Virus record (IMG/VR): IMGVR_UViG_3300042090_001260
Span: 1 to 38,989 of that record
Length of the DNA stretch: 38,989 bases
Source of the DNA: a virus
Direction: 5' to 3' (one strand)
Of the stretch, positions 2 through 31,394 are shown one piece after another. The notes below the pieces were generated by a model. That model had not been told where the DNA came from. It did no database searches and saw only the letters and a list, made by a program, of their open reading frames with translations. The stretch's first letter is position 1. Each line of letters begins with the position of its first letter. Position numbers and translations under genes: made by a program.

Positions 2-295
2 GAGACGATCCTGAAGTCCGCCCTGCGCACCGGCACCAACAACAACGACGTGAACCCCGTCAACTCCATGGGTCTCCTCAAGGAAGGGCAGTACAACCTG
101 TCCCGTCTGACATCCAACACCGCTTGGTGGATCCTCACTGACGCTCCGGAAGGACTCAAGTTGATGATGCGGCGTGGGTTGAAGCGCAGCATGGAAGGTG
201 ACTTCGAAACTGATACTATGCGGTATAAGAGCACGGAACGGTATGTGCCGGGCTTCACGGACCCACGATGCACATTCGGGACTCCCGGCTTGTAA
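2..295 (+). CDS. Major capsid protein, C-terminal part (cut by window start)
   Basis: The reading frame is open from base 2 to the TAA at 293-295, giving about 97 residues of a C-terminus. The stretch around residues 27-60 (WWILTDAPEGLK, then MMRRGLKRSMEGDFETD) and the end (ERYVPGFTDPRC, FGTPG) resemble the last strands of Mu gpT-like major head subunits, where a Trp-rich 'W-x-L' strand is followed by an R/E-rich segment and an aromatic-Gly tail. Position at the head of the virion gene block agrees. The assignment rests on pattern memory of a partial protein; another head protein is possible. A hairpin and a homing endonuclease gene follow immediately. Confidence 0.55.
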   Translation, partial: ETILKSALRTGTNNNDVNPVNSMGLLKEGQYNLSRLTSNTAWWILTDAPEGLKLMMRRGLKRSMEGDFETDTMRYKSTERYVPGFTDPRCTFGTPGL

Positions 296-3435: not shown

Positions 3436-4350
3436 ATGGTGTATGTCAAGGATTTTTCCTTTCCGAAAGAATTCGGCTTCCACGGCTCGGACAACACCAG
3501 CGACACCAGCCGCAAGGGCGGTCGCAACGATGATACCTATGTTGGAAAAGCCAAGGACGGTCCAGCAAATCGCGAATCAGCGAAACGTCATCGTTATGAC
3601 GATGGCGGATCGGTACAACCGGATGATCCATTTACAGGTGGTCCTCGGCCGGAAGGACCAATGCTAAATGGGAATTCTACTGGTATGATCAGTCCGACGG
3701 GATCCAATCAGATGCCGGCACGGGTGGCGCCGCATGGGGGCGGTCGCTACTATCCTTTGGCCGAAGGCGGTCATGTCGACCGGCAGCACTATGATGTCGG
3801 CGGATCAGTGATGCCAGCCGCACCAGGACCGACACCGGCCCGTGGTGTTCCTCGTCCCGTTCCAACGCAGCCGAGTACACCCGGCGCCGAACCGACGATC
3901 TCGATGCCGATGTCGATGGCCGGACGGATTGCGCAAGGACTGGTCGCCCAAGGTCAGAAGATGGGTGCTGCAGCCGGTTCTAGAGCCCAGGGCGTTCGTC
4001 CAATGGCGCCACCGATGAGCGCGGCGTCGATGGGCGGAATGGCTCCTGGCGGTGCTGGAGCGGGCGGTGGCATGGGTGCGCTGAGTTCGCCTATGGCTGC
4101 GGCTCCCGCTGCATCGCCAAGGACCGGAGTTCCGGCGATGAAAGAGGGCGGTCATCTGACGGCCAAACAGCGGCATGCGTTGCCAGCCGGGGATTTCGCA
4201 CTTCCTGGCGAGCGATATCCGATTGAGGACAAGGCGCATGCCCGGAATGCCTTGGCGCGCGTTTCGCAGAATGGATCTTCAGCCGAAAAGGATGAAGTCC
4301 GATCCAAGGTTCATCGCAAATACCCGGAGATCGGGAAAAGAAAGGACTAA
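3436..4350 (+). CDS. Low-complexity virion or scaffold-like protein with GG-x-V motifs, 304 aa
   Basis: ATG 3436 follows TAGGAGAG. The protein is Pro/Gly/Met/Ala-rich and probably disordered between residues 60 and 230. Four short motifs of the form x-x-G-G-x-hydrophobic occur: YDDGGSV (3595-3615), LAEGGHV (3757-3777), YDVGGSV (3790-3810) and MKEGGHL (4138-4158). The last about 60 residues form a recognisable helical module (FALPGERYPIEDKAHARNAL, then ALARVSQ and KVHRKYPEIGK), like the C-terminal domain found on phage protease or scaffold-type proteins (DUF6582-like). The N-terminus shares F-x-KEFGF-x-GS with the next gene product, so the two may be distant paralogs. Role inferred: internal assembly or scaffold protein. 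Confidence 0.65.
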   Translation: MVYVKDFSFPKEFGFHGSDNTSDTSRKGGRNDDTYVGKAKDGPANRESAKRHRYDDGGSVQPDDPFTGGPRPEGPMLNGNSTGMISPTGSNQMPARVAPHGGGRYYPLAEGGHVDRQHYDVGGSVMPAAPGPTPARGVPRPVPTQPSTPGAEPTISMPMSMAGRIAQGLVAQGQKMGAAAGSRAQGVRPMAPPMSAASMGGMAPGGAGAGGGMGALSSPMAAAPAASPRTGVPAMKEGGHLTAKQRHALPAGDFALPGERYPIEDKAHARNALARVSQNGSSAEKDEVRSKVHRKYPEIGKRKD

Positions 4351-4354
4351 GCAA

Positions 4355-5266
4355 ATGGCGATTCATCACCTTCGCGACGGCGAAAACTTCGGGGATAGTC
4401 CCGAGCATTTCAGCAAGGAATTCGGCTTCAGTGGATCGACGAAACCCGATTTCCCGATGTCGCGCAATCGCGGTCACAGCGAGAAATCGTTCGACGCGCA
4501 GCAACATGGCCGTAGCCGTGTGATTCCGGAGATTGAACATCAGGGCCCGCATCATATGAGCCATGCCGGTGCGCCGATGGGTGAAGCCTATGCCGAGGGC
4601 GGTCCGATCGAAGAGCACCATCCCGATGGCATGGTCGTCCATCATCATCCGGACGGCCATTCGAGCGAGCACCACCCGGATGGTACGGTGGTCCATCATC
4701 ATATGCACGGCGGCCATTCGGTTCACCATGCCAGCGGTCATGTCGAGCATCATCATCCAGACGGCATGATCAGCCATCACCACACCGATGGCCATGTGAC
4801 GCATCATCATCCCGACGGTCGCGTTGAGCACCATGACGCTCATGGTGGTCGTACCGTTCACCACCCCGATGGCCACGTTGAACATCATGATTCCAGTGAA
4901 TACGCACACGGCGGCCACATGATGGGGATGCATGCAGACGCCATGCAGGACAAGGCGATGATCAAGAAAGCATTCGCCGAACACGACAAGGATTTGCACG
5001 AAGGCGCCCATGAAGACCTGAAACTGGCCCGTGGCGGCAACGTGCCGAAGGGTCTGCGGGCGCACGGCATGCGGCCGGATCCGATGTCGGCAAACCCTGT
5101 GCGCGGTCCGATGGACTATGGCGTCAACTCGGGCGACGAACCACCGATGGCCGGCAGCGGTCAGGCGATCGGCCAGTTGCGTGAGGGTGGTCATGTTTCG
5201 AGCCGTCACGAGCGGCACGGTGAACGCGAAGAACACGAACCGAGGCGTCATCGTCGCGAGGATTGA
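4355..5266 (+). CDS. Histidine-repeat protein (HHPDG repeats), 303 aa
   Basis: ATG 4355 lies four bases after the preceding stop; a longer open frame from 4175 would overlap the previous gene by 176 bases and is less likely. Residues about 87-190 are tandem short units built on HHPDG, HHHPDG and HHTDG separated by V/M-x-x or G-H-V spacers, making this one of the most His-rich stretches one could expect in a phage. Such a segment should bind Zn, Ni or Cu and change charge with pH; that is inference. The N-terminus (SKEFGFSGS) matches the previous gene product. GG motifs recur: YAEGGPI, YAHGGHM, LARGGNV and LREGGHV. The C-terminus is Arg/Glu/His-charged. No known enzyme motif is seen. Confidence 0.7.
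   Translation: MAIHHLRDGENFGDSPEHFSKEFGFSGSTKPDFPMSRNRGHSEKSFDAQQHGRSRVIPEIEHQGPHHMSHAGAPMGEAYAEGGPIEEHHPDGMVVHHHPDGHSSEHHPDGTVVHHHMHGGHSVHHASGHVEHHHPDGMISHHHTDGHVTHHHPDGRVEHHDAHGGRTVHHPDGHVEHHDSSEYAHGGHMMGMHADAMQDKAMIKKAFAEHDKDLHEGAHEDLKLARGGNVPKGLRAHGMRPDPMSANPVRGPMDYGVNSGDEPPMAGSGQAIGQLREGGHVSSRHERHGEREEHEPRRHRRED
4613..4900 (+). repeat. Degenerate tandem repeat encoding HHPDG units
   Basis: The segment repeats a 9-33 base theme (CAT/CAC CAT/CAC CCG/CCA/CCC GAT/GAC GGC/GGT). Codons vary between copies while His, Pro, Asp and Gly are kept, so the repeat is conserved at protein rather than DNA level. At least seven H-H-x-D-G units are present. This argues for selection on the peptide rather than recent slippage. 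Confidence 0.85.
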
Positions 5267-5272
5267 TCGGCG

Positions 5273-5551
5273 ATGCAGATCGATGTCGTCAAGGCTCAAG
5301 CCGGAACGCTGGTCGATTGGATCATCCAGTGGCGGCGTTCCGTCGAGCCGGGCAGCGAAGATGTCGCGATGATGCTGCATAAGGCGGCTCGGCAGATGGC
5401 GGCGACGGCTGGATTTGACCTGGCGGAGGTGGACAGTGCCATACGAGAGTCAGGCTCAGTCGAGAGCGATGCATGCGGCGGCGGCGAGTCCGTCGGTGGC
5501 AAAGCGCATTGGAATCCCGCAGAACGTCGCGAAGAAGTTCGTCAAGGATAG
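5273..5551 (+). CDS. Small helical protein, 92 aa, overlapping the next gene
   Basis: ATG 5273 has GAGGA upstream. Residues 1-55 look like a real protein: LVDWIIQWRRSVEPG, then a helix MMLHKAARQMAATAGFDLAE. After about residue 55 the frame runs through the start of the next gene for 116 bases and becomes Gly/Glu/Ser-rich with little structure. The unusual overlap could mean the true product is translated to 5551, that a frameshift joins it to the 69-residue downstream frame, or that its tail is tolerated junk. No family recognised. Confidence 0.5.
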   Translation: MQIDVVKAQAGTLVDWIIQWRRSVEPGSEDVAMMLHKAARQMAATAGFDLAEVDSAIRESGSVESDACGGGESVGGKAHWNPAERREEVRQG

Positions 5552-5645
5552 CCACGGCCAAAAGGTTGATGATCTGCCGGAACATGTCGGTGACCGAACG
5601 AAGCATAAGGACGGTGGCGTTGTACGTCCGCCGTTTCGGTGGTAG
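5436..5645 (+). CDS. Small conserved phage protein (SQAQSRAMHAAA type), 69 aa
   Basis: GTG 5436 is chosen because GGAGG sits 6 bases upstream; a TTG or other start further up would lack this. The sequence has the familiar phage small-protein layout: SQAQSRAMHAAA, then IGIPQNVAKKFVKDSHG and DDLPEHV. Proteins of this type occur next to head or scaffold genes and are of unknown function. It ends with HKDGGVV, another copy of the GG-x-V motif found in neighbouring virion proteins. Its first 116 bases overlap the upstream gene in another frame. Confidence 0.7.
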   Translation: MPYESQAQSRAMHAAAASPSVAKRIGIPQNVAKKFVKDSHGQKVDDLPEHVGDRTKHKDGGVVRPPFRW

Positions 5646-5647
5646 TC

Positions 5648-6763
5648 ATGGCAACGACCAGCGGCACCGTGGCGACGCAACCATTTGATCAAAGGCGCGT
5701 GATAGATCATGCCATGCGAAGGGCTGGTCTAAGTCCCGAGCGCGTCACCGCCGAACAGTTGGCCTTCGCCACCGAAAATATCTTCAGCATCTGCGCCGAA
5801 TACTGCAACGCCGGATTCCCGTTGTGGACCCGCGAATTCATGCTGTTGGGCGCGCAGATCGGCTCGCCTGACGTTCCGACGCCATTTGGCACGGTCGATG
5901 TCATGCATACCTATTGGCGGACCATCAATCCGTATCGCGGCCCCGACGTGCTGTCGTCTGGCGCGACGGACCAGTTGCTGTTTGGCGGACAGCCGAATAC
6001 CGACGTCGTCATCGCCGGGCCAAATCCAGCCGTTGCCGTCGCCTATCAGTCGCCCACGGAAATCGACACGATCGGCGTGCTGTTGGGTGGTTCGTCATCG
6101 GTGACGGCGGCACTACAGGTCCAAACGGCGCCTGATGGGCAGACGTGGACGACGGTGCAGACGCTGCCGTCGGCAACCTACGTACCGCAGAACTGGACCT
6201 ATTTCGATCTAAATCCGACGATCAAGGCATCATTTGTCCAACTGGTGAATCCCGGTGCGTCATCCTGGACGCTGAACCAGTTGAACTTTGGTCTGTCGAA
6301 TGGCCAGGATATCGAGATCGGCCCGTTGAACATCGACCAGTATTACAATCAGCCGGATAAGCTGTTCCGCTCAGACCGCGCCACTTCGGCGTTCCTGGAT
6401 CGCCAAGTGAACGCGCCGGTGATAAAAATTTGGCCGACGATCAACAACAACGGATTTTACAACGGCACCATCTCGGCACTGGCCCGTCGTTACATCCAGG
6501 ATCCTGGGCTGCTGACGAATAACGTCGAAGTCCCGGCACGATGGCTTGAGGCGTTGCAGTGGCGACTGGCGACGACGCTGATCTGGGAATTGCCTGATCT
6601 TGACGAAGCTGCATCGAGCAACCCGTTCGGTCTGCAGGCTAAGCAGCAGCGGATTCAGGCGATCGAACAGAAGGCGACGAAGGCGGAACTATTGATGTGG
6701 TCCGAAGAAAGGTCGCACGGATCTGTCCAGATTGCGCCGTCGGTCGCTTGCTATACAAAATAG
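5648..6763 (+). CDS. Virion protein, probable head-tail connector with discoidin-like insert, 371 aa
   Basis: ATG 5648 lies two bases after the preceding stop; a GTG at 5639 is a less likely alternative. Residues 10-55 are helical (DHAMRRAGLSPERVTAEQL, then ENIFSICAEYCNAGFPLW), as in podovirus adaptor or gp4-like proteins. Residues about 135-225 read as a beta-sandwich like an F5/8C (discoidin) domain: IDTIGVLLGG, ALQVQTAPDGQTW, ASFVQLVNPG. The last about 80 residues return to helices (VPARWLEALQWRLATTLIW, then an A/E/K-rich end), again adaptor-like. I infer a ring-forming connector protein carrying an inserted carbohydrate- or protein-binding domain. Exact role uncertain. Confidence 0.65.
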   Translation: MATTSGTVATQPFDQRRVIDHAMRRAGLSPERVTAEQLAFATENIFSICAEYCNAGFPLWTREFMLLGAQIGSPDVPTPFGTVDVMHTYWRTINPYRGPDVLSSGATDQLLFGGQPNTDVVIAGPNPAVAVAYQSPTEIDTIGVLLGGSSSVTAALQVQTAPDGQTWTTVQTLPSATYVPQNWTYFDLNPTIKASFVQLVNPGASSWTLNQLNFGLSNGQDIEIGPLNIDQYYNQPDKLFRSDRATSAFLDRQVNAPVIKIWPTINNNGFYNGTISALARRYIQDPGLLTNNVEVPARWLEALQWRLATTLIWELPDLDEAASSNPFGLQAKQQRIQAIEQKATKAELLMWSEERSHGSVQIAPSVACYTK

Positions 6764-14077: not shown

Positions 14078-14313
14078 TAAATCCGACGACAGGGATGACA
14101 GCGAGACATTGGACGGCGCAGACGAGTTTGCTGATCTCGCGTTATGCCACGATCCCGATTCTCTATGACGACAGTGGATGGAAGGCTTGGGCGGCTTACG
14201 TGTGCTCGATTCCCGCATTGGCGGCTGTGAGTGTACCTCGACCGGAAATCTTCAAGGACTGGCGGGAATGGGCGATCTCGTTCAATGCGCAAACGCGGAA
14301 TCTCGGACTTTGA
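14074..14313 (+). CDS. Small tail-region protein, 79 aa
   Basis: GTG 14074 overlaps the preceding stop (GTGA). Three Trp are spread over 79 residues, with W-x-AQTSLLISRYATIPIL, SGWKAWAAYVCSIP and the end DWREWAISFNAQTRNLGL. Comparable short proteins follow the nozzle gene in related short-tailed phages, but their function is unknown to me. No membrane or signal segment is convincing. The next gene begins on a TTG inside its stop codon. Confidence 0.65.
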   Translation: MINPTTGMTARHWTAQTSLLISRYATIPILYDDSGWKAWAAYVCSIPALAAVSVPRPEIFKDWREWAISFNAQTRNLGL

Positions 14314-14906
14314 AAAATTTTCGATTGATTGGAACTGTCGATGTCGAACCGCTCTTGCACGCGGTCACCGAACATTCGGAACTGTGGGATAGTAATCGGG
14401 TGCGGACATGGCATCGGGCAAGCCCACACTATGGAAAACCCGACATCGTTCTGCGGTTTCAAGACTGGCATCCTGGTGAGGATTATTTCGATCGCGTGCT
14501 GACGACCTTGGGCTGTATCGAATATCCCGCCTACGCCGCGATTCCAGAAGCCAGGGCGGTCATTGAGACTATCGCTGCTATGGTTGGCGCCGTCGAAACT
14601 GGACGGCTCTACATCTCACGTACGCCGCCAGGTGCCCACACACCTGACCACGTCGATCGGATTATCCCAGCCGAGAAGCGGTTCCCGAACCGGCCAATCG
14701 TCTGCGAATATTATGACCGGTACCATGTGTCGTTGCAGTCGGCGTCGGGGCTACTGTTTCACAGCGGCAAGGAATCAATTTTTCCCGCAGTTGGCGAGGT
14801 TTGGTGGCACAACAATCTGTCGAAGCATTCGGTGGAGAACGGATCGTCTGTCGAATGGATTCAAATGGCTCTTGATTTTCGCATTGATCGCGCGACAGAC
14901 TGCTGA
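14310..14906 (+). CDS. Aspartyl/asparaginyl beta-hydroxylase-like Fe(II)/2-oxoglutarate oxygenase, 198 aa
   Basis: TTG 14310 is chosen because it overlaps the previous stop (TTGA), the coupling used throughout this genome; the frame is also open further upstream but overlaps the preceding gene. The cupin core is recognisable: SRTPPGAHTPDHVDR with H114-x-D116 as two iron ligands, then RYHVSLQSASGLLFHSGKE, the GEVWWHNNLSKHSVEN segment with H173 as third ligand, and a final ALDF strand. The family hydroxylates Asp/Asn or related residues using 2-oxoglutarate. The Arg usually found near the end to bind 2-oxoglutarate is not evident (SSVEWIQMALD), so co-substrate binding may differ. Substrate unknown; a virion protein is possible. 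Confidence 0.75.
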   Translation: MKNFRLIGTVDVEPLLHAVTEHSELWDSNRVRTWHRASPHYGKPDIVLRFQDWHPGEDYFDRVLTTLGCIEYPAYAAIPEARAVIETIAAMVGAVETGRLYISRTPPGAHTPDHVDRIIPAEKRFPNRPIVCEYYDRYHVSLQSASGLLFHSGKESIFPAVGEVWWHNNLSKHSVENGSSVEWIQMALDFRIDRATDC

Positions 14907-14943
14907 TATTCTTTAATTCTGCGTTGACCCCTTGTGTCGGTCG

Positions 14944-14960
14944 GCGGTTTGTTCAACCGC
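14944..14960 (+). other. Short hairpin upstream of the acetyltransferase gene
   Basis: GCGGTT (14944-14949) pairs with AACCGC (14955-14960) around a 5-base loop. It lies in the 78-base gap after the oxygenase gene and 24 bases before the next ATG. No T run follows, so it is not a standard terminator; it could affect translation of the acetyltransferase gene. Confidence 0.35.
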
Positions 14961-14984
14961 GTCGCACCAGCAGGGGTAGTGACA

Positions 14985-15503
14985 ATGCCGTCGACCAGTC
15001 TCCAAACCATCGAATCCCCAGAAGTAGACATCCGCTATGCGTGGGGTGAATCCTACGATGCATTTCGCCGCGAGGCGCAGCCGCTGATCGAACGGCATTG
15101 GAACGAAGTCGGCTCACATCGCGATATTCTGCGTTTGAACATCGACCATGACCGCTATCTGTTCCTCGAAAAATCAAAGATATTTCACCTTCTGACGGCA
15201 CGGGATCGTGGCCATTTGATCGGCTATTTCGGCGTCTCGGTGATTCCCTATCCTCGCGACAAGGATGCGCGCCTCGGCGTCGATGAGTTCATCTATGCGA
15301 TGCCAGAATATCGCAGACATTACGTCGGTCTGGAGATGGTCGAGCGCGGCGAAAAGTACCTCGGCGAGCTTGGATGCCACATTGTTGCGTTTCGCGAAAA
15401 GGTGCTTGGTCCGAATCATGGATATTTGAAACACCTTGGGTTCGAACCTCAGGAACTGGTCTGTACCAAGATTCTGAATCTGCCCCATGCCGGTGAGAAA
15501 TGA
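14985..15503 (+). CDS. GNAT-family N-acetyltransferase, 172 aa
   Basis: ATG 14985 has AGGGG 9 bases upstream; a GTG at 14934 would add 17 residues but lacks a ribosome site. The GNAT core is visible: the N-terminal helices with FRREAQPLIERHW, strand 4 (DRGHLIGYFGVSVIP), strand ARLGVDEFIYAMPEYR, the acetyl-CoA loop and helix RRHYVGLEMVERGEKYLGEL, and the last strands VAFREKVLGPNHGYLKHLGF. The R-x2-G/A signature is only partly kept (YRRHYVG). The family acetylates amines, including protein N-termini and Lys. The gene sits between tail and internal-protein genes, as acetyltransferase genes often do in marine and rhizobial podovirus-like phages. Substrate unknown. Confidence 0.8.
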   Translation: MPSTSLQTIESPEVDIRYAWGESYDAFRREAQPLIERHWNEVGSHRDILRLNIDHDRYLFLEKSKIFHLLTARDRGHLIGYFGVSVIPYPRDKDARLGVDEFIYAMPEYRRHYVGLEMVERGEKYLGELGCHIVAFREKVLGPNHGYLKHLGFEPQELVCTKILNLPHAGEK

Positions 15504-17937: not shown

Positions 17938-19212
17938 ATGGCCGGCGCCCTTTCGGCAGGCACCTATGACTATCCAGAACTCGACAGCGATACGGCTGAC
18001 GATGCTGGCGCGCCCGTTCGCGGTGGTCCTCTTGCCCAAGTTGCGGCGAATCCCGAAGCCGAGATGTACCAGTCGTTGGCCGGTCAAGGTTCGGTAAGCG
18101 ACCAGTTAAGTCCATTGCAGCGCGCCCAGGATGCCGCCAACAAAGTAAAACAGCAGCGCATCCAGGACGCCATCGCCAGCCTTCAGGCGGCACAGCAGGG
18201 GCAGACGACCAATCTCCCGCTGCTGGCTGCTGCTGGCGCGATGCTAGCGCCTCCTGGAGGTGCCGGGAATTTTGGCACATCGCTCGGTCGCGCGTTTCAG
18301 GCTGCGGCACCGGCTCTCCAACAGCAGCGCCAGCAACAGCAGGCCACGCAACAGCAGATCGCGAATCTCGGTATCACCAGTGCCGATGTCGATACGGCGG
18401 CGGCGAACCAGGCGATGCAGGATTTCTATAAGCGCGTGCAGATGGCGCAGACTGCGGCGAGCGGTGCGACGACGGCGCAGAACCAAGCGACCACGGCGGC
18501 GGAGACGGCCCGTCATAATGCAGCACTGGAAAGGAACGCCGCAGCCACAGCAGGAGCAACTGCTGGATATTATAAATATCTGGAGACGCCCGATGAAGAC
18601 GAGCCAGATCGTTACACGCCGGTGCTTGACCCCTCGACGAAGAAGCCGCTGATCGACGAGCAATCCGGTCTCGGACTCTATCAGCCATGGGCGGGAAACA
18701 AATCTCTTGGTCCGCCGGTGCCCTATGACCCGGCGACCGACACGACGCAGAAGAATCCGGCCGACGTGCAGCGCGTCAATTGGCTGATGCAGAATGGATT
18801 GGCACCAGACACCCAGACGGCATGGGCGATGGCGCACCAAGGGATCAACGACGCCGCGACGCGTGCCCGATTGGTTCAGGCGCAGATGAAGATCATTTCG
18901 TCGAACAATCCGAAACTGACGTCCGACCAGTTGAAGTCGCAGGCGCAGACTGACGTCGATTCGTTCTTCCCGCGAACTGGGGCGACTGGAGCCACGGCAC
19001 CGGCCCCGAAGACTGAAGCACCGGCGGCACCATCAAGTGGGTTCAATCTTCTCAGCCCGTCGACCTGGGGTGGCCACTCATCTGCGGCGTCAGCACCAGC
19101 ATCGACCGATGATCCAATCACTCGCGCCCGTGCGGCTATCGCTGCCGGCGCTCCTGCTGCTGCGGTTCGGAAACGCTTGGTCGATAATGGCATTGATCCG
19201 AGTGGCCTGTGA
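17938..19212 (+). CDS. Ala/Gln-rich internal virion protein, 424 aa
   Basis: ATG 17938 directly follows the upstream TAG. Residues 60-190 form Gln/Ala-rich helices (QRIQDAIASLQAAQQGQTT, ALQQQRQQQQATQQQIANLG), probably coiled coil. VRGGPL (18016-18033) near the N-terminus repeats the GG motif. The middle has a Pro/Asp-rich linker with repeated PVLDPSTKKPL-like text. The last 30 residues (ITRARAAIAAGAPAAAVRKR, then LVDNGIDPSGL) form a module that often ends phage internal proteins. I infer an ejected or core protein of the virion. Confidence 0.7.
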   Translation: MAGALSAGTYDYPELDSDTADDAGAPVRGGPLAQVAANPEAEMYQSLAGQGSVSDQLSPLQRAQDAANKVKQQRIQDAIASLQAAQQGQTTNLPLLAAAGAMLAPPGGAGNFGTSLGRAFQAAAPALQQQRQQQQATQQQIANLGITSADVDTAAANQAMQDFYKRVQMAQTAASGATTAQNQATTAAETARHNAALERNAAATAGATAGYYKYLETPDEDEPDRYTPVLDPSTKKPLIDEQSGLGLYQPWAGNKSLGPPVPYDPATDTTQKNPADVQRVNWLMQNGLAPDTQTAWAMAHQGINDAATRARLVQAQMKIISSNNPKLTSDQLKSQAQTDVDSFFPRTGATGATAPAPKTEAPAAPSSGFNLLSPSTWGGHSSAASAPASTDDPITRARAAIAAGAPAAAVRKRLVDNGIDPSGL

Positions 19213-22200
19213 TGGACGGCTCGTCTCTCAGTTTTGATGATCTAATCCCGCAGCAGAAGGCGGCGATTTCATTTGACGATTTGATCCCACAGCAGTCGAT
19301 GCCTGTCGTCGATGAATTCGGTCGTCCGATGGATACCGAAGCGGCACCGAAGCTGCAGCCGCATGCCCAGACCGAAATGGAGCCATGGAATCCATCACTC
19401 GGAGAGCGCGCCACCCAATGGGTGAAGAACGAGTTCGGCATCCCCGAGCGGCAGACGGCGCAGGAACAGAACGTACTAGCGGCGCAACAGGCAGGAATGG
19501 CTCCCGCAGAAGCGCGGCAGGCTGTCGGCGGCATGTCGGAAATTCCCCAACAGTTCGCAGGAAAGGCCGTTCATGTGGCGACGCTTGGTTTGGTCCCCGA
19601 TCCTTCTGGAGAAGCGGGAACAACGGCTGGCGTCGTCGGCGGTGCGTTTGGTCAAGTCGCTGGTTTGTTTGGTGCGCCCGTCGCCGCAGCGAGAGGAATG
19701 ACTTCGGCGGTTGGACTCGATTCCGTACTCGCGCCGGCTATGACCGACACCATCGTGACTGGCCTCGCCAAGGGCATCGGTCAAGAGTCGGCGACGATGG
19801 CGACCGCGATGGCGTTGCAACAAATCGGCGATTCGGTCGACTCTCCAGATGTTGCGACTGCCGCGAAGAAGGAAGCGCAGGCACTGAAATCCGGCGCGGA
19901 GATGGGTGCGACCTATGGCGTCGCGGGCCGATTGTTCCCTGGGGCTAATCCAGCCGAGTGGGCGGCCCGTGCTGCCGTTGCGCAGACCGGTACGAGTGCC
20001 ATGGAAGGAAAGTCGCCATGGGGTGATTTTTCCAACTGGGAGAACATGAGTGGACAGGAAAAGGCGCAGGCGGCATTCAATGCTGCGGCGAATATTCTGT
20101 TCACCAGGACCGGAACGCCGACGGCATTTGGCCGCAGTCGAATTCCAGGAGAACCAGAAGCGCCGACGGCGACAACCGCCCCGCAAGCGGTTCCTGCACC
20201 GGAAGTGATTCCGCCGAACGGATTCACGGGCGCGGCTGCGACACCGAGTCCAGATGCAGCACCTATGCGTGGCTGGCCTGCCAACATCGAAGATATTGCG
20301 GCGATGCTTATGCCGCCTGCTGCTGGTGAACCCGCGATTCCAGAAACCCCAGTCGCTTCGACGACGCCGGAACCTGCCGCCGATATCAATGCACAGATCA
20401 AGGCCATGCTTGATCGGAAGAATCCGAAGGACGCAGTATTTGTCGCGTCCGGCAATGAAGATGCTATTCCCGAAAAGTTGCCAAAGCGCGTGCAAGTGGT
20501 CCAGCGTGACGAAGGTACGCTCCTGACAACCAACCCGCTAAAGGCGCAGTCGTTCAGCGAAGCCCCGCAGATCACTGAACAGCATATGGCTGTTTTGCTG
20601 GGACTTCCGGAAGCCAAGCCGGATGCACAGGAGAGCGGGCAACAGGAAGTCGTACAAGGCCAGGATGCCGATGGAAATGTCATCGCCGAGGCCCTGACAT
20701 CGCCGCAAAAGGCACTGCAAACAACGGAAGCCGTGGAAGCGCAGACGCCGAAAGATGGCGCGGTGACGATCGTCACGCCGCAGGAAGCACAGGCCCGACG
20801 CGCTGATATGACCGCCGAGGAGCATGAAGGGGAAGTCAACACGGCGATCCAGACTTACATGGATCATCCTACCGAGGAAAATGCAGCGGCGGTCCGTGCC
20901 GCGGAGAATGCCCGCAATGAAGCCAAAGCAGCCGTTCTGCCCGTCGCCGCCGTTCCAGCCGGAGCGGTCCCTACAGTCCCAGTTCAGCCGGGAGGAGTGG
21001 GAACAGCACCGATGCCGGCAGTTCCACCGGGAAATACTGAGGCTGTTCCCGCTGCGCCGGATGAGAACGGGACGCGTGCCGTCAGTGCCGCTGCGCCCAC
21101 CGAACCTGCTGTTAAGCCTGCTTCGTCGCTTGCTGCCATAGTCGGTGCGACGCCGCGCTATGCGGCAACCATGATGGGAAAAGGTGCTGCCGGATTTTCT
21201 GGGGGCAGCGCAACTGGTCACGGAAATCTGGTGCTCGATACCGGTGTCATCCCGGCCTTCGATGCCGCTGTGGCAAAGCTGCCGCAGCAGCCGATCAGCA
21301 ATGACACGGTGCAGAATATCTACGACCAAGCGGACTCGGATAATGCGCAACCCATCGAATGGCGCGGTGTGATCGATCAAGACGGAAAACCCGTTGCCGT
21401 TGGGCGGACGCAGACTGGCGTGCCGATCGGTGCCGATGCAAAAGTTGTCTCAATGTTGCAGAAACACGGCTTGCAACTGCGTGCGACTGATCCAGCGAAA
21501 CCGCTCGCTGTCTTCACGGACGATGGATTGAGTCATGTCGGCGTGATGGCGCCGATCAAGGTTGACCCAGAAAAGGTTGCCGAAACGCAGAATTCATCCG
21601 CATCTCCGCTTGAGCGCGACGACGAGGGCACCGCACCGCCTCCCAACTCGATCCCGCAGCGCGTTGGGAATTCCACCGTCTATCGCGCCCCAGAAACTGC
21701 TGCTGCCCGTACCGTTGCCGAACGCACTTTGAATGGCCTCGTCACCAAGACCGTCGGCGCCAACCGATCGAAAGTCCAGGTCGTCGATCACATTGAAACT
21801 CCTGGTGGTTCGTCGGCGACTGGCATGGTTTCACCGGACGGTAAGACCATCTATCTGACGCTGCACGATATCGACAGGATGGCCGGCACGATCAACCACG
21901 AAGTCATCCACGTCATGCGGAAAGCCGGTCTGTTGAGCGGCAACCGATGGGCTGTCCTGGAAGCGGCGGCTCCGAAGTGGCGGCGCGATTTCAACATCGA
22001 TCAAGCCTATGCGTCCGATATCGAAAACTGGCGCGACGAAGGTCTTCCCGACGACAAGATCGACGATCTGCTGAACGAAGAGGCGGTGGCGACGGCATCG
22101 CGGAAGTTCGGGGATGGCACGCTGTCGCCGAAGCCGGCCGGATTCATGGCCGTCGTCCTGCGGTCGATTCGTGAATTCTTCGAAGGTCTGCGGAACCTTG

Positions 22201-25200
22201 TCAAAGGTCGCGGCTTCAAGACGGCGCGTGGTGCATTGAATGAAATCCACGATGGCGATTTGGCGAAAGATGGATCCGATATCGAGCGTCACGAACTCGG
22301 GGAAATTGAGGAACAACCGATTCCAGGCCGCGAGGAGTTACACAAGGGCGCCCGAGATTACGTTCTGTTCAAAGGGAAAGAGACCGGCCACGAGCACGGA
22401 ATTGCCATCGACCAGGATGGAAAGGTGGATCGGTTCACATCAAATCTGCCAAGCAAAATAACGATTTCAAAGGAAAATCCAGAACTTTGGAAGAGAATGA
22501 ACACGTCAGGAAACAACATTGATATTCACCATAATCACCCTAATGGAGCGCCACAGGTTAGTCTTAGCGACATTCGATCCGCTATGATGGATGGAGTAAA
22601 TTGGGTTGTTTCACATCAAAGACCAGGGGAATTTTCCGCCGTGCGAATGACTCCGGCTTTGCGCATGATGCCACGCCAGAGACGTGATACCGTAATTTCT
22701 GCATCATATGAAGGTGCGCTTAATGGCGTATATCGCGCCATGAGCCAGTTGGAGGACAAAGACCCAACTGGATATCGTGGATTTATGCAGAAAGGCGCGA
22801 TGGAAGAAATCGTAAATCGGGCACTCCAAAAAATTGGCGTAATTGAATATCTATCTTCTCATCGATGGGAACCCAAAAGTCTGAACGATGTTGACTTGGC
22901 GACAAAATTCGCCGTTAATTTGGCGCATCATGCCGCAAGAGAGTCCGCGTTTGATTATGGATTCCCCAAAATAGGAGTGATTGATGCCCTCATACAGCAT
23001 GGTGACGATTCCGGCCCTGTCAGCGCCGACGAAGGATTTTCAAGAATGTCTTCGGCACCTATTGAAGGAACCGAAGGACGACGCTGGAGTTCAGACCGCG
23101 ATCAAGGATATACGAATGGTTCTGCGGGTACGCGAGGGGAATCGACAGACGAAGGCGGCTTAGATTCCCTCGGCCTTCACGAAGATGACATTCGTGATGA
23201 ACAGGACCGTGCCGGTGCCAGCCGCCTAACCCGTATCCTCGACCATCTCGACAGCATGGGTCCTGGCCGTGGCCCGTTGAAACGCCCCGTACAGGCGATC
23301 GAGGCGGCTGCCGACGCCATCAAGAACAGCATGCCAGGTCGATGGGCTCGCCGTGCCATCTCTCCCGGTTCATTCGACGTGAACGCGAAAAACGCCGCCA
23401 TGGCTATCCGCCACATGTGGGGGCGGCTCTATGCTATGGAAGTGCAGATGGGGCATCAGTTGAACGCCGCATCGGATATGCTTGACCGCATGCCGGTCGC
23501 CGAATGGAATCGCATCGGCATCGCCTGGAGCCAAAGCCACTACGAAGACATCCCCACCGAGTTGCAGCCGTTCTTCCGCAAAGCCGACGAACTAACTGCT
23601 GAAGCGACGGCGCGCGTGCAATCGATTGGCGGACTGAAGGAGGCGCAGGAGCACTACGTCGGTCGTATCTGGCGTCCCCGAGGACAGCGTGCCGCCGTCA
23701 CCGACGATGAGGCGCGAAAGATCTATGCCAAGGTCGCCAGCAAACGTCCGCTGACCGGCAGCAAGTCGTTCCTCAAGAAACGCTACTACGATGAATATGA
23801 AGAGGCGATCAACGCTGGTCTAGAGCCGATCTACAATCCGCTGAAAACCCAGATGATCAAGATGCTGGAGATGAACCGATTCTTCGGCGGTTCTGTTTTG
23901 GTCAAGGCAGCGAAGAACAGCGGCATCGCGCAGTTTGTGAAGCGTGGTGACCCTGTGCCCGATGGCATGATGGAACTGCAAGGTCCGGAGTTTCAGCGCG
24001 AAGCCCATACCATTGAGAAGGAAGGCGAGAAAACCGTCATCCGGCCGGGTGCGTGGTTCGCTCCGGAGGGATGGGCGCGGGTGTATAATAATTTCGTGTC
24101 GAAAGGGTTATCAGCCACCATCCATGCCGAACCGGCGCAGATGCTGCGCGATGCTGCGAACTTGATGAATATGTTCCAGCTCGGGCTGTCGTTGTTTCAT
24201 CCGATGTTTACATCGATCGACGCGCAAGTCAGCCGAATCGCCATCGGTATTGATCAAGCGGTCCGCGGCGAATTTGGGAATGCGGCAAAGAACGTGTTGT
24301 TCGGTATCAGCCCGACCAATTGGGTGACGAATGTAAAAGATGGCGATCGGATGATCCAGTCGATCTTGGATCCACACCGGGCGTCGCCGGAACAGCAAAG
24401 ACTGGTACAAGCTTTCGAAGCAGCTGGCGGACGGATCTGGATGGAACGCGTGCTGCGACCATCCGATGAGGGACCAATTGCCCTGACGAATTTCAACAAG
24501 GATAACATCCCCGGACCGCCGGCTATTCGGAATACGTTGATCGCCGTCAAGGCAGCAGCCTATCTGCCCGTGTCGCTGGCCCGTGCGTGGAAACAAGCGG
24601 CGCAGAAATATCCAGACAGCATTGTCCGCCCAATTTTCAACGTGATCGCGCGGACCATGGAAACGACCTCGGCGCCGATCATGACCTGTCTGGTGCCGCG
24701 GCAAAAGCTTGGCGTGTTCTCGCGCATGGCATCGGATTGGATCGCATCGCATCCAGACGCATCGAATGTCGAATTTGTCGCCAAAATGCAGGATCTTTGG
24801 GAATCGGTCGACAACCGTCTTGGTCAGATGGTCTACGATAACCTGTTCTGGGACAAGACATTCAAGGATGTTTCGTTCATGACGGTGCGTTCCGTCGGTT
24901 GGAATATGGGGTCGATTCGCGAGCTGGGCGGCGGTTCATTCGAGAGTGGCCAGTATCTGCTCAACAAGGCGGCTGGACGTGATGTCGAGTGGCCCCATAG
25001 GTTGAGCTATATTATGGCATTGACGGCGATGACCACCGTCATGGGCGCCATAATGACCTACCTTTTCACGGGATCAGGCCCGAAACAATTCAAGGACTAC
25101 ATCTTCCCGCCGACCGGTGAAAAGCGGGTCATGAAGATGCCTGGCGGCAAGACCATGTCCGTCGATGAGCGAATCTCGCTGCCGACCTATATGAAGGACG

Positions 25201-25574
25201 TCTATGCATGGTCGATCCAGCCCGGTCAGACGGCGAAGAACAAGTTGCATCCCCTGCTCTCATCGATGGCTCAGATGTGGGACAATCACGATTATTATGG
25301 CGATCTGATTCGCAATGAGGATGATCCCTTGGTCACGCAGCTTTGGGACGTGATGAAATTTACCGGTGTCCAGTTCGAGCCATTTACATTCCGCAATACG
25401 GCGAAACTCTACAAGGAAAAGCCCGGAGTCCAGGCCAGCCTTGGCATGCTCGGGTTCCAACCGGCGCCTGGCTACATCGTGGCGCCGGAAGCCAATGCAG
25501 CATGGGAAGCGGCAAAGCACAAAGCCGAGGTCAAGAAGACTGAGAAACACAAAGCGGCGATGGGCGAAAACTAA
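19212..25574 (+). CDS. Giant internal virion protein with HExxH and RadC/JAMM-like motifs, 2120 aa
   Basis: ATG 19212 overlaps the previous stop; a GTG at 19209 would add one residue. Parts in order: tandem SFDDLIPQQ at residues 7-28; Gly/Ala-rich helices to about 290; a Pro/Ala/Glu-rich low-complexity region to about 640; a metallopeptidase-like segment with HEVIH at 896-900 and an EEAVATASR helix downstream; a RadC/JAMM-like motif HNHP-NGAPQ-VSLSD (1107-1120) in an A/T-richer stretch (about 22340-23010); a long helical conserved C-terminal half; a membrane-like segment LSYIMALTAMTTVMGAIMTY near 1930-1955; and a Lys-rich end. Proteins of this size after the internal genes are ejected with DNA in short-tailed phages. 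Peptidase activity at either site is inferred only. Confidence 0.75.
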   Translation: MDGSSLSFDDLIPQQKAAISFDDLIPQQSMPVVDEFGRPMDTEAAPKLQPHAQTEMEPWNPSLGERATQWVKNEFGIPERQTAQEQNVLAAQQAGMAPAEARQAVGGMSEIPQQFAGKAVHVATLGLVPDPSGEAGTTAGVVGGAFGQVAGLFGAPVAAARGMTSAVGLDSVLAPAMTDTIVTGLAKGIGQESATMATAMALQQIGDSVDSPDVATAAKKEAQALKSGAEMGATYGVAGRLFPGANPAEWAARAAVAQTGTSAMEGKSPWGDFSNWENMSGQEKAQAAFNAAANILFTRTGTPTAFGRSRIPGEPEAPTATTAPQAVPAPEVIPPNGFTGAAATPSPDAAPMRGWPANIEDIAAMLMPPAAGEPAIPETPVASTTPEPAADINAQIKAMLDRKNPKDAVFVASGNEDAIPEKLPKRVQVVQRDEGTLLTTNPLKAQSFSEAPQITEQHMAVLLGLPEAKPDAQESGQQEVVQGQDADGNVIAEALTSPQKALQTTEAVEAQTPKDGAVTIVTPQEAQARRADMTAEEHEGEVNTAIQTYMDHPTEENAAAVRAAENARNEAKAAVLPVAAVPAGAVPTVPVQPGGVGTAPMPAVPPGNTEAVPAAPDENGTRAVSAAAPTEPAVKPASSLAAIVGATPRYAATMMGKGAAGFSGGSATGHGNLVLDTGVIPAFDAAVAKLPQQPISNDTVQNIYDQADSDNAQPIEWRGVIDQDGKPVAVGRTQTGVPIGADAKVVSMLQKHGLQLRATDPAKPLAVFTDDGLSHVGVMAPIKVDPEKVAETQNSSASPLERDDEGTAPPPNSIPQRVGNSTVYRAPETAAARTVAERTLNGLVTKTVGANRSKVQVVDHIETPGGSSATGMVSPDGKTIYLTLHDIDRMAGTINHEVIHVMRKAGLLSGNRWAVLEAAAPKWRRDFNIDQAYASDIENWRDEGLPDDKIDDLLNEEAVATASRKFGDGTLSPKPAGFMAVVLRSIREFFEGLRNLVKGRGFKTARGALNEIHDGDLAKDGSDIERHELGEIEEQPIPGREELHKGARDYVLFKGKETGHEHGIAIDQDGKVDRFTSNLPSKITISKENPELWKRMNTSGNNIDIHHNHPNGAPQVSLSDIRSAMMDGVNWVVSHQRPGEFSAVRMTPALRMMPRQRRDTVISASYEGALNGVYRAMSQLEDKDPTGYRGFMQKGAMEEIVNRALQKIGVIEYLSSHRWEPKSLNDVDLATKFAVNLAHHAARESAFDYGFPKIGVIDALIQHGDDSGPVSADEGFSRMSSAPIEGTEGRRWSSDRDQGYTNGSAGTRGESTDEGGLDSLGLHEDDIRDEQDRAGASRLTRILDHLDSMGPGRGPLKRPVQAIEAAADAIKNSMPGRWARRAISPGSFDVNAKNAAMAIRHMWGRLYAMEVQMGHQLNAASDMLDRMPVAEWNRIGIAWSQSHYEDIPTELQPFFRKADELTAEATARVQSIGGLKEAQEHYVGRIWRPRGQRAAVTDDEARKIYAKVASKRPLTGSKSFLKKRYYDEYEEAINAGLEPIYNPLKTQMIKMLEMNRFFGGSVLVKAAKNSGIAQFVKRGDPVPDGMMELQGPEFQREAHTIEKEGEKTVIRPGAWFAPEGWARVYNNFVSKGLSATIHAEPAQMLRDAANLMNMFQLGLSLFHPMFTSIDAQVSRIAIGIDQAVRGEFGNAAKNVLFGISPTNWVTNVKDGDRMIQSILDPHRASPEQQRLVQAFEAAGGRIWMERVLRPSDEGPIALTNFNKDNIPGPPAIRNTLIAVKAAAYLPVSLARAWKQAAQKYPDSIVRPIFNVIARTMETTSAPIMTCLVPRQKLGVFSRMASDWIASHPDASNVEFVAKMQDLWESVDNRLGQMVYDNLFWDKTFKDVSFMTVRSVGWNMGSIRELGGGSFESGQYLLNKAAGRDVEWPHRLSYIMALTAMTTVMGAIMTYLFTGSGPKQFKDYIFPPTGEKRVMKMPGGKTMSVDERISLPTYMKDVYAWSIQPGQTAKNKLHPLLSSMAQMWDNHDYYGDLIRNEDDPLVTQLWDVMKFTGVQFEPFTFRNTAKLYKEKPGVQASLGMLGFQPAPGYIVAPEANAAWEAAKHKAEVKKTEKHKAAMGEN
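19230..19295 (+). repeat. Tandem SFDDLIPQQ peptide repeat at the giant protein N-terminus
   Basis: Two copies of the nine-codon unit SFDDLIPQQ start at 19230 and 19269, 39 bases apart. Codons differ (CTA ATC CCG against TTG ATC CCA), so the peptide rather than the DNA is kept. Short FDDLIP-type motifs are typical at the start of large phage ejection proteins and may serve docking in the virion. Confidence 0.8.
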
Positions 25575-27672: not shown

Positions 27673-27990
27673 ATGCGCGCCGTCATCATTCTCGCTGCAG
27701 CGTTATCTTTGACCGGATGCGCTGCTGGTGCGGCTGCGGGCGGCGCAGCGGGTGGTGGGCTGGCGACGGCGCTCACCATCAACACGGACGCCGATACGGC
27801 GCTGAAGATAGTCAAACCGGTCAATACGGTGCTGTGTGTCGTGCGGCCCTTTAACCCAAAGAGCGCCGAAGCCAAAGCCGCAGTCGATGCCTTCTGCGCG
27901 CACCTTCCCGATTCGACGCTTGGATTGTTGCCGCAGATGCTGGCGATCATCGAAGCGGTCGATGCCGCCCATGATACAGGATCGCCGTGA
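27673..27990 (+). CDS. Small lipoprotein with glycine-zipper, 105 aa
   Basis: ATG 27673 starts four bases after the preceding gene. The signal MRAVIILAAALSLTGC has an L-T-G-C lipobox (Cys16). Immediately after it is an Ala/Gly-rich zipper (AAGAAAGGAAGGGLATAL), which can pack in membranes, then a Pro/Asn/Ala region and a helical end (LGLLPQMLAIIEAVDAA). Two more Cys (CVVRPF and FCAHL) may form a disulphide. Two adjacent lipoprotein genes in a phage lysis region suggest a role at the outer membrane. Confidence 0.65.
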   Translation: MRAVIILAAALSLTGCAAGAAAGGAAGGGLATALTINTDADTALKIVKPVNTVLCVVRPFNPKSAEAKAAVDAFCAHLPDSTLGLLPQMLAIIEAVDAAHDTGSP

Positions 27991-28112
27991 TGGAAGACGA
28001 GGGGGAGCGACTAGGAATTGTCTGGTATTCCATCGTCGGCGCGGGAATCCTCTCGCTCTATCTTTTTGCTTTCGCGGTCATCTGGGTTTCGATTCATTCG
28101 GTGTCTTCGTGA
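27990..28112 (+). CDS. Single-helix membrane microprotein, 40 aa
   Basis: ATG 27990 overlaps the previous stop (TGATG), and the frame ends in a TGA that overlaps the next start (GTGA), a tight coupling that supports a real gene. The N-terminus is acidic (EDEGERLG) and residues about 10-33 form one hydrophobic helix (IVWYSIVGAGILSLYLFAFA). No family recognised. It is a candidate lysis regulator or helper of the lipase encoded next. Confidence 0.55.
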   Translation: MEDEGERLGIVWYSIVGAGILSLYLFAFAVIWVSIHSVSS

Positions 28113-28720
28113 CTCCCGCCAGTAAATTTGCGCGTCTTGTCGCCTACGCCTATACGCTTTCGGTCTACGATTTCGGATCAAAGGACGGTGCGGCGCGGGC
28201 GCATATCGAGACGATTGATGGACTTAAAACGGTTGCCGTTCCGGGAACCAATGACTTCGCCTGTTGGCTGGCCGATCTGGATATTTTGACCGCCAACACG
28301 CCGCTCGGGACGATCCATCAGGGGTTTCATCTGGCGGCACAGACCATCGCTGGGCAAGTGATCGGTGAGACACCTGACGTTCTGACAGGGCATAGCGAAG
28401 GCGCCGATCTGGCGTTGCATTTCGCTGGAGATTGCTGCCTCGCTGGCCATCCGCCGAAACTTGTCTGGGCGTTTGAGCCGGCGCATCTCTGCATCGACGA
28501 CACGCTTGCGGGAATTTTTAAGCACTATGGCGTCGATGTCAAAATCACACGGCACGGCGGAGACATCGTCCCCATCGTGCCGCGTAAGATCCATCCGTGG
28601 CGCCATCCACTTGTTTCTCCAGTGATTCCGTTTGGTGTCCCGACTCCGGTGATTGGCGGATTGGAAGACCACTATCTGGATGATCGGTTCATCGCTGACC
28701 TTGACGGATCCGGACTGTAG
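28109..28720 (+). CDS. Class 3 lipase-like alpha/beta hydrolase, 203 aa
   Basis: GTG 28109 overlaps the preceding stop. The fold signature is clear: VAVPGTNDFACWLADLDI at the front, a GHSEG nucleophile elbow with Ser96, the acid in RHGGDIVPIVP (Asp152) and His188 in LEDHYLDD, in the order and spacing of fungal-type (class 3) lipases. No signal peptide, so it acts in the cytoplasm, at the inner membrane, or only after lysis, or leaves with the virion. Likely substrates are membrane lipids or esters; that is family knowledge. It closes the late operon, next to lipoprotein and membrane microgenes. Confidence 0.75.
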   Translation: MTPASKFARLVAYAYTLSVYDFGSKDGAARAHIETIDGLKTVAVPGTNDFACWLADLDILTANTPLGTIHQGFHLAAQTIAGQVIGETPDVLTGHSEGADLALHFAGDCCLAGHPPKLVWAFEPAHLCIDDTLAGIFKHYGVDVKITRHGGDIVPIVPRKIHPWRHPLVSPVIPFGVPTPVIGGLEDHYLDDRFIADLDGSGL

Positions 28721-29659: not shown

Positions 29660-30151
29660 TTATCCCTCCGTCCGGTCCAAGCGTTCGATCTCGGCGACAA
29701 TTAGCGCGGCGGCGCGGATGAGGTCACGACGTCGGTCTTTGGGTTTCCACCATTTCCAATGCCACCGCCAACCACGCGGCACTCGACGCGACGTTCCATC
29801 CTCATCAAACCGAAGAATCGAATCATCACGCCCGGATGCATGAAGCGCGTAACATCCCGCCGCTGCGGCAAGTTCCCCGTCGTTGTGCAGATCGTCATGT
29901 GACTCCGACCAGCCCTCTTCCTCGACCTGCCGGCGGCGCTCGGCCGCGATCTCTTCAATGACGGCAGACCCCTGACCGATCGCCAGCACGTATTCCAGCA
30001 TGGCGCGGGCCTGGTTGCAGTCCAGAAGGTTTGTCCCGGTCGGCATCGGATATGCCGGATTTCGCACAAATGAAATTCCGCCATCGGGATTGAAGGTTTC
30101 CGGCAATCTCCAGCCAAGGAAACGGTTCACTGCTTCGTCAATGTCGCTCAT
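29660..30151 (-). CDS. Conserved phage protein, 163 aa
   Basis: ATG 30151 overlaps the stop of the upstream gene (ATGA); a GTG at 30160 would extend it by three residues. The C-terminal domain contains IAAERRRQVEEEGWSESHDD, then GELAAAAGCYALHA, and the Trp-rich RGWRWHWKWWKP followed by RRRDLIRAAALIVAEIERLD, a pattern well known from phage and prophage proteins of unknown function (often near nucleotide-metabolism genes). The N-terminal 60 residues form a separate domain (FLGWRLPETFNPDGG, QARAMLEYVLAIGQG), suggesting a fusion of two small phage modules. Confidence 0.65.
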   Translation of the reverse strand: MSDIDEAVNRFLGWRLPETFNPDGGISFVRNPAYPMPTGTNLLDCNQARAMLEYVLAIGQGSAVIEEIAAERRRQVEEEGWSESHDDLHNDGELAAAAGCYALHASGRDDSILRFDEDGTSRRVPRGWRWHWKWWKPKDRRRDLIRAAALIVAEIERLDRTEG

Positions 30152-31182
30152 CTCGTCCACCTTACCGGCTGTTGATCATCGGTGATGCGGTGCTTGCCTC
30201 GGGCGAGGGGTAGCCCATTATGTTCGATGCCATCGAGGAGGCGGCCGGCGATTTTCTTACCTGGGCGATGCAGGCTTACCCCTGGTCCACCGTGCTCTTC
30301 CCTGGTTCCCCATGCGATAGTTCCGTCTGGCCATGCGACGGACGGCGCATCGTTTCCGCGCGCTTCGTCGAGATAAGGGGTGCCCCAATGCGGCGCCCAT
30401 TCACCCCATTGCTTGAACAGGTATGGTATATTGGCTGCCTCGCTGAAATCCCGCGCGTTTCTATGCCAATCAGGATGCGACGGCCTGGCGTGCTGGCCGC
30501 TTTCTCCGCCGCTGATCAGCCAGGACAGGAATTCCCAGCCCGACCAATCGACCGGTCCGAGCGCGGGCTCATAGCTGACAAAAGTGTGCCAACCGGCGGC
30601 TGCGATCCGTTCCATGTGCGGCCGGCGTTCATCGGCGCACTCTTGATCCTCGACCGTGCCGCCGATGATGATGTTTGGATGCCAGCGGCCATCAGTGAAT
30701 GTGTCAATCGGGACGCCGAACAGCTTTGGGTGTTTCGAACGTATCGGCCCCGAGGCGTGGAGAACACGCTCATAGAGGGCTTTCCCATCAAGCAGGTAGG
30801 TCGCCGCCGTCTCCAGTCGTTTGGACAGCACGTAATAGGTATGGTGAGGCGTCAACGCCATCACCGCAAACAGTCGATCGATGACTTCGAAGGGCACCTT
30901 CTTATGAAAGATGTCGCCCATGCTGGTCAGAAACCACCGGGCCGGCTTCTTGACCTTGAGTGGCGCCAACATGTCGGGTTCCGAGATGTGGACATCGCCG
31001 GTCCATTTTCCCAGGTTGCCGTGGCGCGTGGCGAGGCCGACATATTTCTCGATGCCCATGGCCTCCAGCCGGGCGGCCAACAATGCGGCGTAGCAGAAGG
31101 CGCAGGCCGGCGAGATGGGATCGCACCCGACGACCGGCGTCCAAGTGTGGTCCGTCCATTCGATCTTGCTGTTCTCGCCCAT
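30148..31182 (-). CDS. Phage Gp37/Gp68 family protein (DUF5131), 344 aa
   Basis: ATG 31182 is chosen because the conserved N-terminus (KIEWTDHTWTPVVGC) starts there. Cys20, Cys27 and Cys30 make a C-x6-C-x2-C cluster (GCDPISPACAFCYA), reminiscent of radical-SAM iron-sulphur sites. Further conserved family segments are FLTSMGDIFH, TYYVLSKRLE, IIIGGTVEDQE and LISGGESG near residues 100-260. The family is widespread in phages, and its reaction is unproven; a radical-SAM-like DNA or RNA modification is an inference. It lies in the middle of the small-gene block and its stop overlaps the next start. Confidence 0.85.
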   Translation of the reverse strand: MGENSKIEWTDHTWTPVVGCDPISPACAFCYAALLAARLEAMGIEKYVGLATRHGNLGKWTGDVHISEPDMLAPLKVKKPARWFLTSMGDIFHKKVPFEVIDRLFAVMALTPHHTYYVLSKRLETAATYLLDGKALYERVLHASGPIRSKHPKLFGVPIDTFTDGRWHPNIIIGGTVEDQECADERRPHMERIAAAGWHTFVSYEPALGPVDWSGWEFLSWLISGGESGQHARPSHPDWHRNARDFSEAANIPYLFKQWGEWAPHWGTPYLDEARGNDAPSVAWPDGTIAWGTREEHGGPGVSLHRPGKKIAGRLLDGIEHNGLPLARGKHRITDDQQPVRWTR

Positions 31183-31184
31183 CC

Positions 31185-31394
31185 TCAAATGTCCTTCTGC
31201 TGCGCCGGCTCGCATCGCCAACCCTTGCTTGCCAAAAGCCTGTACCGATCGTGCTCGTTGAGCCATTCGATGACCGCATACTGACCTGGAGGCCCCTGGC
31301 ATTGCCCAAGGGTGATTCCCTCTCGCAGAACCGCCTCTTCCTCGCATTGGTGAGGACTGGAGATCAGGCAGACCCAAAAGACAATGCGGATCAT
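31185..31394 (-). CDS. Small exported-type protein, 69 aa
   Basis: ATG 31394 overlaps the upstream gene's TGA and has AAAGGAC 10 bases upstream. The first about 14 residues (MIRIVFWVCLISSP) could be a short signal sequence, followed by HQCEEEAVLREG, LGQCQGPPGQYAVIEWLNEH and a final GWRCEP. The Cys pattern and the QYAVIEWLNEH segment are characteristic of a small protein common in phages of Alphaproteobacteria (function unknown). This supports the host inference. Confidence 0.65.
   Translation of the reverse strand: MIRIVFWVCLISSPHQCEEEAVLREGITLGQCQGPPGQYAVIEWLNEHDRYRLLASKGWRCEPAQQKDI

Follow-up and report, generated by a model that had tools for sequence, protein, structure and literature searches.

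One gene of the window, by which we mean the whole 38,989-nucleotide stretch of viral DNA analysed here, encodes a protein whose centre is built from ten exact nine-residue units rich in histidine, and this repeat looks like a structured meander of the TCP10/G-box kind, not like an unstructured metal tag, as judged from profile matches and predicted models. The gene keeps its place inside the head gene block, and we see about an even chance that the product is an accessory protein, expressed late and either structural or involved in assembly, through which podovirus-like phages present a binding surface or cross-linker responsive to metal and pH; the podovirus-like character of the group and the membership in a late operon are part of that same estimate. 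The coordinates of the gene, its parts and its neighbours are collected in Table 1.

Table 1. Position of the histidine-clad repeat protein, its parts and the neighbouring genes in the window.
Feature	Position	Strand	Extent or content	Basis or remark
Major capsid protein, C-terminal end	50..295	+		Cut by the left end of the window
Upstream neighbour	3436..4350	+	FGFxGS N-terminal tag; C-terminal DUF6582/phrog_16160 domain	DUF6582 match under the Pfam cut-off
His-clad repeat protein	4355..5266 (stop included)	+	303 aa	Translation and homologs
N-terminal tag	4355..4438	+	Residues 1-28 (MAIHHLRDGENF..EHFSKEFGFSGS)	Homolog alignment
Repeat sheet (predicted)	4607..4888	+	Residues 85-178; ten 9-residue units and a final half unit	
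Helix module (predicted)	4940..5035	+	Residues 196-227, around DKAMIKKAFAEHDKDLHEGAHEDLKLARGG	AF2 and L033 match
C-terminal Pro/Gly-rich tail	5045..5200	+	Residues 231-282	Homolog alignment
Small ORF after the His gene	5273..5551	+	92 aa	Similar ORF in L002 (QAGT...)
F5/8 type C domain protein	5639..6763	+		Conserved downstream neighbour

An AAAGGA-like ribosome site lies immediately 5' of the start codon, and a longer start at 4175 was rejected, since the homologs begin at the equivalent of 4355. An antisense ORF (4091-5380, minus strand, 429 aa) was likewise discarded as a true gene: relatives keep the plus frame, and the ORF is explained as a by-product of the histidine codons CAT and CAC, which read ATG and GTG on the opposite strand.

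The preliminary description had noted tandem histidine repeats in this protein; they are real, and their register is stricter than first noted. Residues 85-174 split without remainder into ten back-to-back units (IEEHHPDGM, VVHHHPDGH, SSEHHPDGT, VVHHHMHGG, HSVHHASGH, VEHHHPDGM, ISHHHTDGH, VTHHHPDGR, VEHHDAHGG and RTVHHPDGH), followed by VEHHD. With the unit positions named a to i, d is histidine in all ten units, e in nine of them, and h is always the turn glycine. HHPDG occurs exactly six times and HHTDG once, and the pattern HH.[DH]G is found eight times as against a maximum of four across 5000 residue shuffles of the protein. The histidine content, which had been called rare, is indeed unusual: 55 of the 303 residues (18.2%) are histidine, the mean of the 19 other predicted genes in the window being 1.6%, and the densest 100-residue stretch (residues 86-185) holds 35 of them.

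The near-identical strains L013 (7767-8654) and L016 (7767-8750) are set apart by an in-frame duplication of 96 nt (32 aa) within the His-rich linker, whose length is thus still in flux. Such an event is what a low-complexity histidine tract driven by slippage, without specific fold or function, would be expected to display, and we rate this explanation of the repeat as very improbable. Identical residues in different units share the same codon in 45% of cases, compared with 47% +/- 2.5% after shuffling of synonymous codons, and identity between units at codon positions 1, 2 and 3 is 0.56, 0.68 and 0.39, the third being least alike. Synonymous codons are therefore randomised between the units, which argues that the units are old as DNA and are maintained at the level of the protein, as the preliminary description had read from the codon variation. 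We rejected a slippage artefact on the exact nine-residue register, these randomised codons and the conservation of histidine; His and Gly are conserved even in distant relatives, and the fold matches described below agree with one another.

Homologs were found on 13 IMG/VR contigs, counting the window and the strain pair L013/L016. A single-sequence scan gave one relative, a DNA pattern for HHPDGxVxHH three further genomes and a profile more, an anchor on the C-terminal tail added one homolog (L116), and the downstream F5/8 gene, used as an anchor blind to histidine, added two (L027 and L038). The search for the repeat in phage proteins next to capsid genes that had been proposed was thus productive in environmental contigs, whereas no homolog was present among 50,697 named phages. 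Profile and pattern scans of 84,980 prokaryote genomes revealed no homolog either; none of the eight exact-pattern matches there had a run of repeats, and the readable ones were isolated matches. In PHROGs the protein of the window had no match, and the best value among the homologs was an E of 0.19, for one homolog.

In the alignment of 12 homologs, the repeat glycines are conserved to 98%, the repeat histidines to 77% and the flanking histidines to 48%, so that histidine is the second most conserved repeat residue after glycine and the candidate metal ligands are retained. Loss of the histidines among relatives, which had been named as evidence against a role for them, is not what the alignment displays. 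The longest runs with 8-10-residue spacing comprise 4 to 11 units across the homologs. The C-terminal tail follows the family consensus PPRNP...MPGGQMxYGVxPSxEPDMAG...MRRGG and is rich in proline, and it has Pro, Arg and Asn residues that vary hardly or not at all; L017 is an example of a homolog with the full tail, and the copy in the window is reduced.

Wherever a contig is long enough, the gene order is kept, running from the major capsid protein (MCP) to the DUF6582-type protein, the His protein, the small ORF and the F5/8-C protein, which bears out the earlier placement of the gene among head genes. The search motif did not pick up a DUF6582 signature in some of the homolog-bearing genomes, and in L002 and L018 a reverse-strand ORF is interposed within the conserved order. 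The N-terminal tag is kept in the His homologs and common to the upstream neighbour; in most relatives the motif FGFxGS is found in both the DUF6582/phrog_16160 protein and the His protein, and it may, judging from the shared motif, be a common docking signal of these neighbours. The 92-aa ORF that follows had no family match. Directly after the capsid gene, positions 366-1700 encode an Endonuclease VII-type HNH protein with zinc-finger-like repeats, similar ORFs lying at the equivalent place in L002, L017 and L033. Farther along the window, positions 14178-14906 encode an aspartyl/asparaginyl beta-hydroxylase-like protein whose 21.5 bits fall slightly short of the Pfam cut-off, and a GNAT acetyltransferase comes next (14934-15503). 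The gene at 19209-25574 codes for one protein of 2121 aa in which neither Pfam nor PHROGs gave a confident domain. We also noted a Lipase_3-like protein (27836-28720; under the cut-off), a DUF5131 protein (30148-31377) and a Gp3-like protein resembling recombination directionality factors (36339-37430).

A homolog lacking the histidine repeats, the other finding that had been named as adverse, was encountered once. L033 has the same neighbours, with a 131-aa protein without repeats in the place of the His gene, and this protein matches the family profile at the helix module (hhalign E 3e-8, 57 columns) and L012 by BLASTP (2e-7). Its DUF6582 neighbour still matches, yet it lacks FGFxGS, as does the 131-aa protein, so that this single case is without both sheet and N-terminal tag. 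Since the L033 homolog retains only the helix module, the repeat sheet is an accessory module and not essential. The nearest named MCPs are those of Caulobacter phages. In Caulobacter phages RW and KcrB, and in MW202545, the MCP shares 71-73% identity with that of L002 and nothing downstream of it corresponds to the His protein, which argues that this head type can do without the function of that protein. A protein that is restricted to phages, accessory, variable in length (4-11 units) and missing from some related genomes could also act inside the cell during infection without being packaged, by metal sequestration, as a chaperone or assembly aid, or by binding a host protein; given that the gene sits inside the head gene block and that the tag is common to the neighbouring DUF6582 protein, we think such an intracellular role unlikely.

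The first indication of the fold came from Pfam, where the protein of the window matched PF07202 (Tcp10_C) with 49.2 bits (E 4e-13; gathering cut-off 36 bits). Seven of the 12 homologs matched this family at E<=1, L014 reaching 26.4 bits, under the cut-off. After all histidines had been masked as X, most of the score was gone and a weak match remained (15.8 bits, E 0.011), so that part of the signal is due to the PDG framework; short PDG repeats can arise by convergence. When a profile of ten homologs was run against PDB sequences with hmmsearch, CPAP/Sas-4 G-box chains were the only matches up to E 1, with values from 4e-5 to 0.7 (4bxq, 4.1e-5; 4bxp, 1.4e-4; 4ld1, 2.5e-4; 4mpz, 5e-3).

In the AF2 model of the window protein, one strand is predicted per nine residues over 85-178, with pLDDT mostly 80-89, followed by a helix at 196-214; the pTM is 0.32 and most of the chain outside the sheet is of low confidence. 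All 11 Foldseek matches of this model in the PDB with E<=1e-3 were TCP10/G-box structures, 4bxr_A superposing with an rmsd of 1.5 A over 94 columns. MORN-repeat structures matched weakly, and a search of BFVD gave no match at E<=1e-3. The model of homolog L014 has a similar strand pattern and its top 11 matches were again TCP10/G-box, with a poor global superposition (rmsd 8-11 A), perhaps caused by a low-confidence break of the sheet at residues 120-128. The AF2 prediction may reflect recall of CPAP. Taken as predictions, these results strongly support a TCP10/G-box-like, free-standing antiparallel beta-meander of 11 strands at residues 85-178.

The TCP domain of CPAP, a centriole protein of animals, is a free-standing, single-layer antiparallel sheet with type I turns that are often PDG, both of its sides are hydrated and solvent-exposed without a hydrophobic core, and a proline-rich ligand (STIL) is bound along its edge via aromatic residues (PMC3776556). 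Sharing this predicted fold, the phage protein might be a receptor for proline-rich motifs in which imidazoles replace the aromatic residues that grip STIL and metal is incidental, the ligand being either the PPRNP...MPGG tail that the family conserves, with its near-invariant residues, or a head protein. We regard this receptor, together with its suggested ligand, as improbable, because the exchange of histidine for aromatic residues is hypothetical and the tail of the window protein lacks much of PPRNP...MPGG though its sheet is among the longest.

We now return to the metal- and pH-responsive surface. The odd length of the unit means that, by hairpin geometry, equal positions of successive strands alternate between the two faces, and because of this alternation an 18-residue period would dominate; the self-similarity of the repeat indeed peaks at lag 18 (0.46), ahead of lag 27 (0.34) and lag 9 (0.33). 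On the inferred faces the histidines are split 14 to 15, and HxH dyads pointing to one face occur in five of the ten units. In designed amyloids, Zn is bound by peptides whose beta-strands carry histidine at alternate positions (PMC10008563), and it is the presence of histidine on both faces together with this analogy that makes us prefer an accessory protein of the head with a surface or cross-linker that responds to metal or pH. In one designed-amyloid structure, adjacent layers are too distant to share a Zn site and a second sheet is required (PMC10008563); by analogy, a metal might join two histidine sheets.

The mechanism we propose begins with the FGFxGS tag, which probably docks the His protein and the DUF6582 protein to a shared partner, for which the head is the simplest candidate. 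The central part of the protein would form a single-layer meander with one strand per nine-residue unit and turns at PDG or xG, in which cross-strand neighbours lie on the same face and the histidines of each unit are shared between both faces. Divalent transition metals should bind to such a two-sided lattice, whose charge should shift near pH 6-6.5. The sheet would thereby serve as a responsive surface or cross-linker, its partner being DNA, another head protein or the proline-rich tail found in its own family. Head docking, the response to metal or protons and the partner are what we infer here. A bolder version, in which a natural single-chain, two-faced histidine lattice in or on phage heads assembles, cross-links or opens with metal or pH, appears rather unlikely to us.

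The preliminary description had suggested that the protein loads metal into the virion or binds metal-dependent host surfaces. The very high histidine content and the 77% conservation of the repeat histidines would suit a virion-borne carrier that takes metal into the cell or a binder of metal-dependent receptors, and metal in phage tail proteins is an idea already discussed; the "Ferrojan horse" idea reportedly concerns iron in phage tails. With the gene lying between capsid and adaptor genes and not among tail fibres, the virion location putative and the sheet lost in L033, we consider this role doubtful.

If the fold holds, the protein offers a natural scaffold on which metal binding, pH response and catalysis on a His-covered beta-sheet can be studied, and in an environmental phage group without PHROGs annotation it draws attention to an accessory component not yet described. 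Our literature search found no paper on TCP10-like sheets in phages and nothing pertinent on His-rich phage virion proteins. Among known systems, Hpn, the His-rich Ni-binding protein of Helicobacter pylori, is similar in its very high histidine content, and we claim no kinship in sequence or fold. MORN repeats are likewise open arrays of beta-hairpins with glycine turns, but their fold match is weaker than that of TCP10 and the phage protein has no Pfam MORN match. Designed Zn-binding catalytic amyloids (IHIHIQI etc.) also carry alternating histidines on beta-strands and are, like the phage lattice, Zn-capable in principle (PMC10008563); they are stacked peptides, whereas the phage protein is natural and a single chain folded, by prediction, as a hairpin meander with putative metal binding, so that a two-faced lattice, if true, would be their natural counterpart. 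The closest likeness is to the TCP10/G-box of CPAP/Sas-4 (PF07202; 4bxp, 4bxr, 4ld1, 4mpz), with which the phage protein shares the sequence profile, the PDG turns, one strand per unit and, by prediction, a free-standing meander, a single antiparallel layer with no hydrophobic core. In the phage protein, unlike CPAP/Sas-4, about half of the strand positions are histidine, the units are exactly nine residues long and the flanking domains are others, and there was no sign of a centriole-type partner. The authors of the TCP10 domain paper considered the free-standing meander, to their knowledge, unique among natural proteins (PMC3776556). An architecture like that of CPAP is apparently present in a phage head operon as well; the fold itself is already known, and what is new is its His-clad phage version.
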